From positions 1 through 5,307 of the forward strand of contig JAUYMQ010000606.1 in the NCBI GenBank assembly GCA_030698575.1: DNA of 5,307 nt, given 5' to 3'. This DNA is from Deltaproteobacteria bacterium (lineage in GTDB: Bacteria > JAUYMQ01). Both the position numbers and the translations under genes were made by a program. Shown in pieces: positions 57 through 5,307 of this stretch. Positions within the stretch are counted from its first letter, which is position 1. Every line of letters starts with the position of its first letter. The notes beneath the pieces are model-generated. The model was not told where the DNA came from. It saw only the letters and a list, made by a program, of their open reading frames with translations, and did no database searches.

Positions 57-2246
57 ATGAGCGCATACTCGTTTCCACCCTTCATAGCCGCTATTGCCAA
101 TCTTTGCATTGGTCTCTTTGTTATTGGTTTTGCGCCGAAGCGAAGAATAAACCAACTTTACCTATCGCTTAGCACGTGCGGTGCGCTTTGGAATTTGGGG
201 GTATTTTTCCTTTTCCTTAAGCATGATCCAGAATCAGCATTGTTCTGGGCGCGCCTACTGCAGAATGGCGTCATTCTTATCCCACCGCTATTCTTACATC
301 TTATCTATCATTTGCTAGGCAAAAAAAATTCTAAGTTATTGGCCGGAACTTACGGTATCGCGATCGCATTCGTAAGTCTAAACTTGAGCGGCCATTTAAT
401 AAACGATATAAAGACGGTTACCTATCCGAATGGTGTCCAGCATTCTTATGGCCAGGGCGGAGCGCTGTACGCAAGCTTCATGCTGTTTCTGCTCTCTTCT
501 ATGTTCATTATAATAAAACAGCTACTTTCGGCTATTCGCACCACTACTGGAATCAAACACGAGCAGTTCAAATATTTGCTTCTCGCTCTAGGGATCACAC
601 TCGCCGGTGGGCTAAACGACATGATGCCCATCGTCTCCGTTCAAACCTACCCGATTGTTAACGTCCCCGTGTACCCCTTTGGAAGCATCGCAATCATAGG
701 GTGGGCGTTCATCATTGCCTATGCGATCCTCAAGCATCGCCTGATGGACATCGATGTCGTCATAAAGAAGAGCGTTACTTATTCAGCGCTCCTGTTGCTC
801 TTATTGGTCCCATGCTATGTGATGCTGATTGTTGGCCAGAGCGTCTTCTTCGGACGCGTAGATCGCGGCTTTAGTGCGCTCTTCCTCACCCTCCTCACCG
901 TGGCGACGTTTGTATTCCCAAGGCTGAAGACCCGGACTGAGCAAACAATCGAGCAGGTACTTTTCAAGGGGAAGTACGACTATCGCGACACGCTGGCTCG
1001 CTTCAGCCAGGATCTTGTCACCATCATTAATCTCGATACGCTTCTGAACCGTACGCTGACTGTGCTGGCTGACACCATGGAGATCAGCCGCGCTTGGGCG
1101 TGGCTCTACCATCGGGGAAGCGACCGTTTTCAGCTCCAGGCCTCGACCTCGGAAGATCATATGCTGACCGGCGAGGTATTCCTTCCGATGAGCCACGTGC
1201 TCCTCGAGGAGCTGGCGGTCCGTCCCCGGGTGCTAGTTACAGAGGAGCTCGAGCGCTACGAGATCAATCCAAGTGCCGTAGCGCTCGGTGCCGCGTTGCG
1301 AGAGCTGGACTGCGAGGCCTGCGTCCCGCTCTCGGCCAAGGGGCGCCTCATCGGCGTCATCATGCTCGGGCGGAAGACCGAGGGGGGAATCTATAGCGAA
1401 GAGGATCTGAAGCTCCTCGGTACGCTGGGCAACGAGGCGGCCATCGCGGTCGAGAATGCCCGGCTCTACGAGGACCTGAAGCAGCAGCAGACGCAGTTTC
1501 TGCGGTCACAGCGCCTTGCCACGGTGGGCCAGCTCGCCGCCGGCCTCGCGCACGAGATCCGCAATCCGCTTGTCGCCGTCAAGACCTTTCTCCAGCTCCT
1601 GCCCGAGCGCCTGGACGATGAGGAGTTCCGCACGAGCTTCCTCGAGACGACATCGAGCGAGGTCGAGCGCATCACTCATCTCCTGAACCAGCTTCTCGAG
1701 TTCGCGCGTCCGTCTGATCCGGTTTACCGCCCCGAGGATTTGGTGAAGACCGCCGATCAGATGGCGACGCTGGCGAAGAACGAAGCGTTCAAGCGGGGAA
1801 TCAGCCTCACCACGCGCTACGACGCGGGGATGCCGCTGGTCACGATGGATGCGAAGCAGCTGAAGCAGGTCGTCCAGAACCTTCTCAACAACGCCATCCA
1901 GGCGACGCCGGAGGGCGGCACTGTTCATCTCGAGATCCACCGCCACCGCGGCCCGGGGGGCGAGGCGCAGGTCCAGCTCGAGGTGTCAGACACCGGCCGC
2001 GGCATTGCCGAGGAGGATCTCGATAAGCTCTTCACGCCCTTCTACACCACCCGCGATACCGGCACCGGGCTCGGGCTGGCCATGGCGCATCGGATCATCA
2101 TGGACCACCACGGCACCATCGAAGTGAAGAGCCAGGTCGACTTCGGCACGCACTTCACCATCACGCTCCCAGTCGAGCCCGTTTTCGTTTCTGCGGACAC
2201 CGAAAGCGCGGAACTTCCCGACCCCGGCGATTCGCCCCGCGAGTGA
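57..2246 (+). CDS. Membrane sensor histidine kinase (7TM-type sensor, GAF, HisKA, HATPase)
   Basis: This 729-residue protein should autophosphorylate on a histidine and pass the phosphate to a response regulator, most likely the NtrC-type protein encoded at the right end of the window. Residues 1-225 hold about seven hydrophobic spans, resembling the N-terminal 7TM region of histidine kinases. The family-typical stretch KHRLMDIDVVIKKS (226-239) follows, then two more spans (about 242-263 and 272-288). A GAF-like domain covers roughly 320-468 and a short helical linker 468-485. The H-box has His499 in LAHEIRNP. The N-box has Asn608 and Asn612, the G1 box is DTGRG (645-649), the F-box is LFTPFYTT (658-665) and the G2 box is GTGLGLA (669-675), so the catalytic core is complete. 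A TAA directly precedes the ATG, so no longer ATG-initiated frame exists. No strong ribosome site is visible. The membrane half is much poorer in GC than the kinase half. The ligand is unknown. The layout recalls PrsK-type kinases of exosortase loci, but nothing here proves that. Confidence 0.95.
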   Translation: MSAYSFPPFIAAIANLCIGLFVIGFAPKRRINQLYLSLSTCGALWNLGVFFLFLKHDPESALFWARLLQNGVILIPPLFLHLIYHLLGKKNSKLLAGTYGIAIAFVSLNLSGHLINDIKTVTYPNGVQHSYGQGGALYASFMLFLLSSMFIIIKQLLSAIRTTTGIKHEQFKYLLLALGITLAGGLNDMMPIVSVQTYPIVNVPVYPFGSIAIIGWAFIIAYAILKHRLMDIDVVIKKSVTYSALLLLLLVPCYVMLIVGQSVFFGRVDRGFSALFLTLLTVATFVFPRLKTRTEQTIEQVLFKGKYDYRDTLARFSQDLVTIINLDTLLNRTLTVLADTMEISRAWAWLYHRGSDRFQLQASTSEDHMLTGEVFLPMSHVLLEELAVRPRVLVTEELERYEINPSAVALGAALRELDCEACVPLSAKGRLIGVIMLGRKTEGGIYSEEDLKLLGTLGNEAAIAVENARLYEDLKQQQTQFLRSQRLATVGQLAAGLAHEIRNPLVAVKTFLQLLPERLDDEEFRTSFLETTSSEVERITHLLNQLLEFARPSDPVYRPEDLVKTADQMATLAKNEAFKRGISLTTRYDAGMPLVTMDAKQLKQVVQNLLNNAIQATPEGGTVHLEIHRHRGPGGEAQVQLEVSDTGRGIAEEDLDKLFTPFYTTRDTGTGLGLAMAHRIIMDHHGTIEVKSQVDFGTHFTITLPVEPVFVSADTESAELPDPGDSPRE

Positions 2247-2282
2247 AAAGTTTTTCTCAATTTGTGTAATCTGACCCCCCGA

Positions 2283-2405: not shown

Positions 2406-2420
2406 TGGCACGTTCCTTGC
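2406..2420 (+). promoter_or_regulatory. Sigma-54 (RpoN) promoter of the fusion gene
   Basis: TGGCACG-TTCC-TTGC matches the known sigma-54 consensus TGGCACG-N4-TTGCW at every defined position except the last, where C replaces A/T. The invariant GG (2407-2408) and GC (2419-2420) are separated by exactly 10 bp, the required -24/-12 spacing. Transcription would begin near 2432, giving a leader of about 80 nt before the ATG at 2514. The match is unusually good. It lies between genes, points towards the next gene and is followed nearby by a gene for a sigma-54 activator, so it is likely functional. Confidence 0.8.
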
Positions 2421-2437
2421 CCCTAAAAAGGGTAAGC

Positions 2438-2513: not shown

Positions 2514-4448
2514 ATGCCCCGGATCCTGGTCATCGACGACGACCTGAGCGCACGGGAGTCGGCACGTCTCGTGCTGGCCGATCAAGCCACCGTGAGAACG
2601 GCTTCGTTCGACGATGACGTCCTCACGCAGATCGCTCGCGAGCCGGCGGACCTTCTGCTTGTCGGTCTCTCTACCCCGCTCGATCGGCCGCTGCGTGTTC
2701 TCCGGGAGGTTCTACTCGCGGATCCCAACGTGCGAGTGATGGTTCTCGTAGAGCGCGATCTCATGGCCGCCGCGCAGCGCATCTTCGACTACAGGGTCGA
2801 GGCGATCCTTCCAAAACCTTTTGATCCACATGCCCTTCGCCGGCGCGTCGGCGAGGTTTTCTCGGGGCACGACCGCATTCCAACGCTTCGCGAGTCGATG
2901 GAAGCCGCCGAATCCGAGGAGCACCACACCGGCCCGGATCTCGCCGTTCTGCTCCCCGCCGCCCTGCGTCCCTTCTTCGCCCGAAGCGCACAGAGCAACG
3001 GGCACGTCGTGATCGAGGGTGAACCGGGCACCGGGAAGAGCGCGCTGGCGCATCGGCTCCACCTCGATAGCCCCTGGCGCAACTCGCCCTACGCCCGGGT
3101 GGACGCCTGGGCACTCACCGAGGCCCGGCTCGACGCCGTGCTCACGCGCCTGGCCACGAACGGCACTGAACGGGAGCACGTGGCAACGCTCTGCATCGAA
3201 GAGCTGGCGCTGCTCGCCCCCGAGATGCACCCGCTCCTCCGCGATCTCGCCGAGGGGAACTATCCGCCCGGCACGCATGCTCCCGTCCGGCGCATGACGC
3301 TTCGACTTCTCATCACCACGACCGAATCTCTTGCCGATCTCGCCGCGCGCGGCGCCCTGCCTCGCGAGCTTCGGGATGCCATCGCGGTACTCGTTCTCAG
3401 GCTTCCACCCCTCCGCTCTCGCAAAGGCGAACTGAGCGATCTGTGCGCCGTAATCACGGATGAACTCGCGCGTCGCTACGCGCGGGAGCCCGTGCGGCTC
3501 TCGCAAGACGCGCTGGACAAACTGCACATCTACCTGTGGCCGGGGAACCTGCGTGAGTTGCGCACCGTCCTTGCCCGCGCGATAGCCCTCACCGACAACA
3601 CCGAGGTGTCGGGCGACGCGGTCCACTTCATCGACGAGGTGCTGCCGTTCCCGGCCCCGCCGCTCGAACAGGCAGTGGAGGAAGGGCCCCCGACCGCTTC
3701 CGCTCAGACTGAAGAGCCCGCCCGGAATGCCCCGGCCGTGAACCATGAGCCCGACTCGCCGACACCGGAAACAGCCCCCTGGGGGCTCCCGCCCCCCATG
3801 GAGCTGGTGGCCCAGCTCCTGGCGCATGAGGTGAAGAATCCCCTCGTCGCTATCAAGACGTTCACCCAGCTCCTCCGAGACAAGTTCGACGACGCTGAGT
3901 TCCGCGACCGGTTCTATGAGATCGTGAGCGGGGACGTGGCGCGTATCGATTCGCTCGTCGAAGCGGCAACTGCCTATTCGCGGCTCGAGGCGCCCAGTCC
4001 CGAGCCCGTCGATATCGGCGTGCTCTTCGACGACGTGCTGAAGGAGTTCGAGCGGAGCTTTCTCGGCAAGCGCATCCTGGTGCTGCGCGAGGGTCTGGAG
4101 ACCCGGCCCCGGGCGCTCGCTGATCCCGCGCAGCTTCGCTACGCAATCCGCTGCATCATCGCCAAGTCGGTTGATCTGATGCCCGAGGGTGCGGATCTCC
4201 AGATTGGATTCCAGACCGTCGCGGCCACTGCCGGGACCGGCTCACGCCTCGCGGCGACCCTGCGGATCGGCGGCGCCGAGGGCATGATGGCGGACATGGC
4301 CCCATTGGGCGAGCGGAAAGAGGGCCTGCCCGGAAACCTCGAGATGGCGCTTGCCCGGGAGGTTCTCATGCGGCAGGACGGGGCGCTCCGCATCGACATG
4401 GACGACCCGCGCGCCGCGGTCGTCACCATCGACCTGCCTGCGGCCTGA
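2514..4448 (+). CDS. Degenerate receiver / AAA+ / histidine-kinase-like fusion protein
   Basis: This 644-residue cytoplasmic protein has three modules in a combination I do not recognise as a named family. Residues 1-117 are a receiver with acidic pocket (Asp8, Asp9) and Lys101, but Gly51 occupies the phosphoacceptor site and Val79 the Thr/Ser site. Residues about 140-376 resemble an NtrC AAA+ module. Walker A GEPGTGKS (169-176) and the WPGNLREL motif (342-349) are kept. The Walker B region reads LCIEE (226-230), the GAFTGA loop is absent, and the FRxDLxxRL arginines fall on Pro and Ala in my alignment. A Pro/Glu/Ala-rich linker (about 378-427) joins a DHp-like region with His438 in LAHEVKNP. 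In the ATPase-like end, the N-box asparagines align with Cys547 and Lys551, the G1 Asp is missing, and the G2 glycines are partly lost. No HTH is seen. I infer a regulatory pseudo-enzyme rather than a kinase or sigma-54 activator. The uninterrupted frame argues against a decaying pseudogene. Confidence 0.85.
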   Translation: MPRILVIDDDLSARESARLVLADQATVRTASFDDDVLTQIAREPADLLLVGLSTPLDRPLRVLREVLLADPNVRVMVLVERDLMAAAQRIFDYRVEAILPKPFDPHALRRRVGEVFSGHDRIPTLRESMEAAESEEHHTGPDLAVLLPAALRPFFARSAQSNGHVVIEGEPGTGKSALAHRLHLDSPWRNSPYARVDAWALTEARLDAVLTRLATNGTEREHVATLCIEELALLAPEMHPLLRDLAEGNYPPGTHAPVRRMTLRLLITTTESLADLAARGALPRELRDAIAVLVLRLPPLRSRKGELSDLCAVITDELARRYAREPVRLSQDALDKLHIYLWPGNLRELRTVLARAIALTDNTEVSGDAVHFIDEVLPFPAPPLEQAVEEGPPTASAQTEEPARNAPAVNHEPDSPTPETAPWGLPPPMELVAQLLAHEVKNPLVAIKTFTQLLRDKFDDAEFRDRFYEIVSGDVARIDSLVEAATAYSRLEAPSPEPVDIGVLFDDVLKEFERSFLGKRILVLREGLETRPRALADPAQLRYAIRCIIAKSVDLMPEGADLQIGFQTVAATAGTGSRLAATLRIGGAEGMMADMAPLGERKEGLPGNLEMALAREVLMRQDGALRIDMDDPRAAVVTIDLPAA

Positions 4449-4470: not shown

Positions 4471-4498
4471 TTGCCTTCATGATCTGCCGTGATATAAT
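4471..4498 (+). promoter_or_regulatory. Sigma-70-type extended -10 promoter of the response regulator gene
   Basis: A perfect TATAAT (4493-4498) is preceded by TGA at 4490-4492, giving the extended -10 form TGnTATAAT. A -35-like TTGCCT (4471-4476) lies 16 bp upstream. Transcription would begin near 4505, leaving a leader of about 50 nt. A consensus -10 in such GC-rich surroundings, placed between genes, is unlikely to be chance. It suggests housekeeping expression of the regulator, independent of the sigma-54 promoter of the preceding gene. Confidence 0.65.
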
Positions 4499-4554: not shown

Positions 4555-5307
4555 ATGAACACAAAGATTCTTGTCATCGACGATGAGCCGAGTGTTCGCG
4601 AGTCGCTGAAAATGGCACTCAAGAACGACTTTCTCGTGATCGCGGCCGCCTCCGCGGAGGAGGGAATCAAGATCGTCGAGGAGGATCGGCCGGATCTCGT
4701 GCTGCTCGACGTGATCATGCCCGGGGTCGACGGCATCTCGGCGCTCGAGCGCATCCGCGCCATCGATCAGCGCGTCCCCGTCCTCATGCTCACTGCCTCA
4801 CAGACGCGCAATACCGCCTTCCAGGCCGGCCGGTTGGGCGCTTACGATTACATCATGAAGCCTTTCGAGCTCGACGAGCTGCGGCAAAAGCTGGCGCGCG
4901 CGCTCGAAACCGTAGCCCTCAAGGCGGAGAATCAGGAGCTCCGCTCGGAGGTGAAACGGCGGTACCAGTTCGGGAACATCCTCGGGAAGAGCAAGGAGAT
5001 GGAGCGGGTTTACCGGACGATCGAGCAAATCGCCGTTACGAAAACCACCATTCTCATCACGGGCGAGAGCGGGACCGGCAAGGAGATGGTGGCGAAGGCC
5101 GTGCACTACAATTCGCCCCGCAAGGACAAGCCCTTCGTGGCCATCAACTGCGCGGCAATCCCCGAAACGCTCATCGAGAGCGAGCTGTTCGGCCACGAAC
5201 GAGGCGCGTTCACCGATGCCCGCGCCCGCCAGATCGGCAAGTTCGAAAACGCTGTGGGAGGGACCCTCTTCCTCGACGAGATCGGCGAGCTGTCGCTGAC
5301 CCTGCAG
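4555..5307 (+). CDS. NtrC-family sigma-54 response regulator (5' part, truncated by window)
   Basis: The 251 visible residues form the start of a phosphorylation-controlled activator of sigma-54 RNA polymerase, which uses ATP hydrolysis by its AAA+ ring to open promoters. The receiver (1-120) has the acidic pair Asp9/Asp10, phosphoacceptor Asp52 in LLDVIMP, Thr80 and Lys102, so it looks fully functional. A linker helix rich in Glu, Lys and Arg (about 120-138) leads to the AAA+ module. This shows Walker A GESGTGKE (170-177), the sigma-54 contact loop as GAFTDA (217-222) rather than GAFTGA, and Walker B GTLFLDE (236-242). The frame runs off the right edge. Family members are usually about 450 residues, so the end of the AAA+ module and a Fis-type HTH should lie beyond. 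The start is the first ATG before the receiver. The ribosome site is weak (GGA at 4537-4539, 15 bases upstream). Its probable partner is the kinase at 57-2246. Confidence 0.95.

Follow-up and report, generated by a model that had tools for sequence, protein, structure and literature searches.

How is a gene controlled that joins parts of a histidine kinase to parts of a sigma-54 activator, and what does its product do? The question is raised by the window, an entire contig of 5307 bases from a draft genome (G000) of 4.13 Mb. This contig carries three genes: a sensor histidine kinase gene, the fusion gene, and the start of a gene for an NtrC-type response regulator (Table 1). The initial annotation had placed a sigma-54 promoter in front of the middle gene and proposed that the activator encoded next to it controls its own modulator. 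The reading that we favor, with a probability of about 60%, is that the fusion gene has a sigma-54 promoter with an enhancer, belongs to a regulon of PEP-CTERM genes controlled by the kinase and the regulator, and acts in negative feedback.

Table 1. Features of the window (positions count from its first base).
Feature	Position	Strand	Description
Sensor histidine kinase gene	57..2246	+	7TM, GAF, HisKA and HATPase domains
Candidate enhancer (upstream activating sequence)	2242..2259	.	Near-palindrome AGTGAAAAGTTTTTCTCA; matrix score and match at L156
Sigma-54 -24/-12 element	2406..2421	+	TGGCACG-TTCC-TTGC-C; pattern match; predicted +1 at about 2432
Fusion gene	2514..4448	+	Pseudo-receiver, AAA+ and HisKA (DHp); degenerate C-terminus; likely modulator
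Sigma-70-like promoter match	4471..4498	+	TTGCCT-16-TATAAT with TG before the -10; consensus match only
NtrC/PrsR-type response regulator gene	4555..5307	+	REC and sigma-54 activator domain, GAFTDA; candidate regulon activator

The three genes and their host genome

A domain search of the middle ORF (2514-4448) found REC, Sigma54_activat, AAA lid and HisKA domains in one reading frame, in agreement with its label as a fusion gene. A sigma-54 activator gene does follow at 4555, although the contig holds its first 251 codons; because the contig ends inside this gene, the DNA-binding domain of the regulator is not visible. Contig C628 was considered as a source of the rest of the regulator and ruled out, as the overlap sequence differs. 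The initial annotation had also described a housekeeping-type promoter before the regulator. A sigma-70-like consensus match is present there, but 1.1 such matches are expected per shuffled window.

The genome encodes one RpoN (E 6.9e-63); its nearest counterparts come from Desulfuromonadales, Myxococcota and other deltaproteobacterial MAGs and share at most about 59% identity with it. No members of the same phylum were among the genomes sampled as relatives, and no 16S gene was found in the assembly. A single-protein search of the genome contigs found no close relatives of the fusion protein, and a sample of 386 genomes from across the domain yielded nothing beyond ordinary NtrC-type matches, none of which reached the HisKA part. 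The comparison of the fusion protein covered four orthologues. One of them, with 29% protein identity, lies at locus L156 in a Myxococcales MAG (G393).

The sigma-54 element and the candidate enhancer

The bases at 2406-2420 on the forward strand are TGGCACGTTCCTTGC, which confirms the element TGGCACG-N4-TTGC reported initially. GG lies at 2407-2408 and GC at 2419-2420, and TGGCAC and TTGC are 5 nt apart, which corresponds to the spacing of sigma-54 promoters; the sole departure from the consensus is a C for T/A directly after GC. The element points into the middle gene, as had been stated, with the ATG at 2514 lying 93 nt downstream. It was the top-scoring -24/-12 element on both strands of the window, by a weight matrix that is based on the published consensus and whose scores serve ranking only. 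When two mismatches were allowed, the pattern matched twice in the window, against 1.35 matches expected, a difference that is not significant. The exact pattern, on the other hand, had 17 occurrences in the whole genome (4.13 Mb), versus 2 for the reversed pattern. The other 16 exact matches are nearly all intergenic and mostly directed into a gene. The reversed-pattern control puts the number of exact matches expected on this strand of the 267-nt gap before the fusion gene at about 6e-5. The element is thus very likely to function as a sigma-54 promoter, as predicted from its sequence.

The initial annotation did not include an enhancer. A near-palindrome of the consensus GGAAAA-NN-TTTTCC spans the kinase stop codon and begins 164 nt upstream of the start of the sigma-54 element. 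The matrix for this motif was trained without the site in the window and without its counterpart at L156; the two sites scored 22.0 and 23.5, respectively, both within or near the range of the training sites, and these scores were matched by 8 of 20,000 shuffles for the window site and by 1 of 20,000 for the L156 site. The genome contains four copies of the core AAAGTTTTTCYC, and the control none. Each of the four cores is followed by a -24/-12 element about 100-170 nt downstream, the one on C55 starting with AGGCAC. Sequences within one mismatch of GGAAAAGTTTTTCC were found at seven places in the genome; at six of these a -24/-12 element (imperfect in one case, with TTGCAC) follows 107-135 nt downstream, and the remaining one lies at the end of a contig. 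Some of the sites are doubled, with the copies about 21 or about 41 nt apart, as expected if the activator binds as adjacent dimers. By sequence, the near-palindrome at 2242-2259 is a candidate activator site.

The distant orthologue at L156 carries both elements, ordered and placed as in the window. Its sigma-54 element, TGGCACAGGCCTTGC, is 88 nt before the start codon, and its enhancer match is at 2865-2882. When the two upstream regions were aligned, the longest runs of identity were the -24/-12 element itself and the block AAAGTTTTTC, which is about 150 nt upstream of that element and corresponds to 2242-2259 in the window. The expectation that the same element would be found upstream of homologues is thus borne out at one distant orthologue, but not at two of the four, where no enhancer/sigma-54 pair is seen in the short upstream sequence available.

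These data bear on the explanation that the -24/-12 match arose by chance and that the fusion gene is expressed through read-through from the kinase gene. Any 5 kb should indeed contain sites with up to two mismatches by chance, the window shows no terminator-like site from the kinase gene to the promoter, and at orthologue locus L155 the start of the fusion gene overlaps the stop of the kinase gene, with no promoter in between. However, the element in the window is an exact match of a pattern that exceeds its control genome-wide, its enhancer lies at the distance seen in the regulon, and the same pair precedes an orthologue of 29% identity, so that we consider chance highly improbable. Since there is no terminator-like site, read-through from the kinase gene could still supply basal expression of the fusion gene. 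This, together with the overlap at L155, makes the earlier statement that the modulator is made only once the system is active too strong.

PEP-CTERM genes and the PrsK/PrsR system

The combined enhancer and promoter pattern matched three times in this genome, five times in G393, and seven times in the other 46 genomes combined, whereas the reversed control gave four matches over all 48 genomes. A control with the -24/-12 spacing off by one base (N6) gave none in the 48 genomes; it also had a shorter enhancer gap and is a rough control of spacing only. In G393, PEP-CTERM genes follow all five strict matches, of which C102 carries three, C175 one and C302 one; on C302 a dockerin-domain gene comes first. 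In this genome, the pairs at C335:2373, C335:10746 and on C634 precede PEP-CTERM genes or gene runs, and the pair on C55 precedes a gene for a secreted protein of no known family. No evident gene is downstream of the pairs on C61 and C128. These two pairs (L164, C61:20-33; L165, C128:2973-2986) are nearly identical, with their elements 135 nt apart, and are located at contig ends with no long ORF after them. Could they be copies of a repeat, or does the same control act on a small-RNA gene there?

PEP-CTERM matches over the cut-off numbered 15 in this genome and 29 in G393, and none were found in either of the two genomes whose fusion orthologue shows no pair. Most PEP-CTERM genes in G000 and G393 are without an enhancer-promoter pair and must therefore be controlled otherwise. 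Single -24/-12 matches in the G393 contigs examined (11) did not exceed the reversed control (13); the case in G393 thus rests on the pair of enhancer and promoter. No exosortase gene was recognized by eye in the contigs examined. Because the same enhancer and promoter appear to drive PEP-CTERM genes in both genomes, the fusion gene most likely belongs to a PEP-CTERM regulon under sigma-54 control. Neither the enhancer nor these targets had been included in the initial annotation.

In Proteobacteria, a 17-nt upstream motif with TTTACA at its end has been described for PEP-CTERM genes, followed after about 63 nt by a -24/-12 element, together with the PrsK/PrsR pair (Haft et al. 2006, PMC1569441). 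Dependence on RpoN was shown for the PEP-CTERM gene pepA in Aquincola (PMC9850573). The present system appears to work like this control. As with PrsK/PrsR, a membrane kinase and a sigma-54 response regulator are encoded in tandem, and an upstream motif and a -24/-12 element precede a subset of the PEP-CTERM genes, here in two genomes. However, the candidate enhancer here has the consensus GGAAAA-NN-TTTTCC and appears to differ from the 17-nt motif, and the gap to the promoter is longer (about 95-150 nt against an average of 63). A guessed approximation of the published motif, TGTAAA-N5-TTTACA, gave no match near these PEP-CTERM genes with fewer than 3 mismatches of 12. The kinase matched PrsK (TIGR02916) over its full length at 180.5 bits, below the cut-off of 300. 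The genome has 16 strong matches to PrsR (TIGR02915), none of which is above the cut-off, the gene in the window being incomplete; the regulator orthologue at L156 scored 421.8 against a cut-off of 502.6. Finally, an extra gene with pseudo-receiver, AAA and DHp parts lies between kinase and regulator and is itself a putative member of the regulon. With its different enhancer, spacing and family scores and the added chimera, the system appears to be a PrsK/PrsR variant and not a member by the published cut-offs. The regulator of the window and its orthologue at L156 (5177-6547) have GAFTDA in place of GAFTGA in the sigma-54 contact loop.

Which activator binds the enhancer? We infer from the gene neighborhood that it is the regulator encoded at 4555, which is the best candidate because its orthologue is located downstream of the fusion gene at both L147 and L156. 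Since the DNA-binding domain lies off the contig, it is this neighborhood alone that ties the regulator to the enhancer. The proposal that the activator controls its own modulator is upheld in part, with regard to the promoter and the regulon enhancer at the fusion gene, with the regulator as the candidate activator. The promoter might be real and the enhancer bound by another NtrC-type activator, the local kinase and regulator merely adjoining the fusion gene. The genome encodes at least a dozen other NtrC-type activators, its 16 TIGR02915 matches single out none by the cut-off, and the fusion orthologue at L155 has no adjoining regulator gene of the NtrC/PrsR type. The conserved neighborhoods, i.e. 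fusion gene and regulator at L147 and L156 and fusion gene and kinase at L155, nevertheless make another activator a rather improbable choice. The PrsK-like kinase and the NtrC-type regulator remain the pair that most likely controls the PEP-CTERM regulon.

Degeneration and proposed role of the fusion protein

The fusion protein shares with NtrC-family enhancer-binding proteins the REC, Sigma54_activat and AAA lid domains in their usual order. It differs from them by a Gly in place of the phospho-Asp of the receiver, by deletion of the segment carrying the GAFTGA loop (both in all four orthologues), and by a HisKA domain where the HTH would be; no HTH of the Fis type was found in the fusion protein of the four orthologues. 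Without phospho-Asp, GAFTGA loop and HTH, the protein is not expected to be a normal activator. Nor is it expected to be a normal kinase, because no recognizable ATPase domain is present: an HATPase_c domain with N and G boxes was not found in the four orthologues. The DHp helix, in contrast to these lost parts, keeps AHE[VI][KRN]NPL in four of four orthologues and thus conforms to the H-E/D-x-x-T/N pattern. An AlphaFold model computed from one sequence had a mean pLDDT of 36.7 and was discarded as too poor.

The intact H-E-x-x-N of the DHp helix makes negative feedback the most likely role. The domain composition suggests either a phosphatase-type modulator acting in negative feedback or a phosphotransferase similar to Spo0B and ChpT. 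In the circuit that we propose, the activator would bind the enhancer at the 3′ end of the kinase gene and stimulate the sigma-54 promoter, so that the phosphorylated regulator would switch on the PEP-CTERM genes and the fusion protein together. The fusion protein would then dephosphorylate or sequester the regulator, or pair with the kinase. A phosphatase or decoy produced in step with the regulon would amount to negative feedback. Feedback at the DNA level is supported by the sequence, as are the promoter and enhancer, the shared regulon, the conservation at one orthologue and the domain losses; the sign and the chemistry of the feedback are what we infer from them.

The main competing explanation accepts the same promoter and regulon and gives the fusion protein a role in phosphotransfer or positive feedback, by which it would relay phosphate from the kinase to the regulator or keep the kinase active. 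Spo0B and ChpT are phosphotransferases derived from kinases and offer precedents; like them, the fusion protein has a DHp with a conserved His and a degenerate ATPase part, and retention of the phospho-accepting His and of H-E-x-x-N-P in all four orthologues, with the ATPase motifs gone, would suit such a function. Here, however, the DHp is joined to a pseudo-receiver and an AAA+ domain, and phosphotransfer is hypothetical. The pseudo-receiver is without the Asp that a relay would use, and the kinase and regulator in the same cluster both have the domains for direct transfer. A relay or positive role is therefore unlikely in our assessment.

Negative feedback, the role that we prefer, has a parallel in FixT, a feedback inhibitor that acts on FixL and is produced by its own two-component system. 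Both would be modulators in a small circuit that are targeted by its response regulator, as is proposed for the fusion gene. The domain composition of the two proteins is, however, unrelated, and the function here is putative.

Control of PEP-CTERM surface proteins is so far known for a few Proteobacteria, and the present data suggest that two distantly related lineages have a PEP-CTERM regulon marked by another enhancer. More tentatively, and at somewhat less than even odds, the locus may represent a previously undescribed, enhancer-driven form of PEP-CTERM/exosortase control with three components, in which a kinase and an activator are joined by a dead chimera serving as phosphatase or decoy. 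If so, a protein made of a pseudo-receiver, a sigma-54-silent AAA+ domain and an ATPase-less DHp would act back on the kinase/activator pair. Such an enhancer-marked chimera of degenerate kinase and activator parts is a direct, testable candidate for the way in which this circuit limits itself.

The orthologue loci showed further genes next to the fusion gene. At L156, a full-consensus sigma-54 element, TGGCACACGCCTTGCT (6747-6762), with a weaker enhancer-like block, lies directly before a REC-HD-GYP gene (6796-8007) that adjoins the fusion/regulator pair. At L147, a small gene (468-827) separates the fusion orthologue from the regulator gene; its product of 119 aa resembles, by eye, four-helix-bundle proteins of the S23 type.
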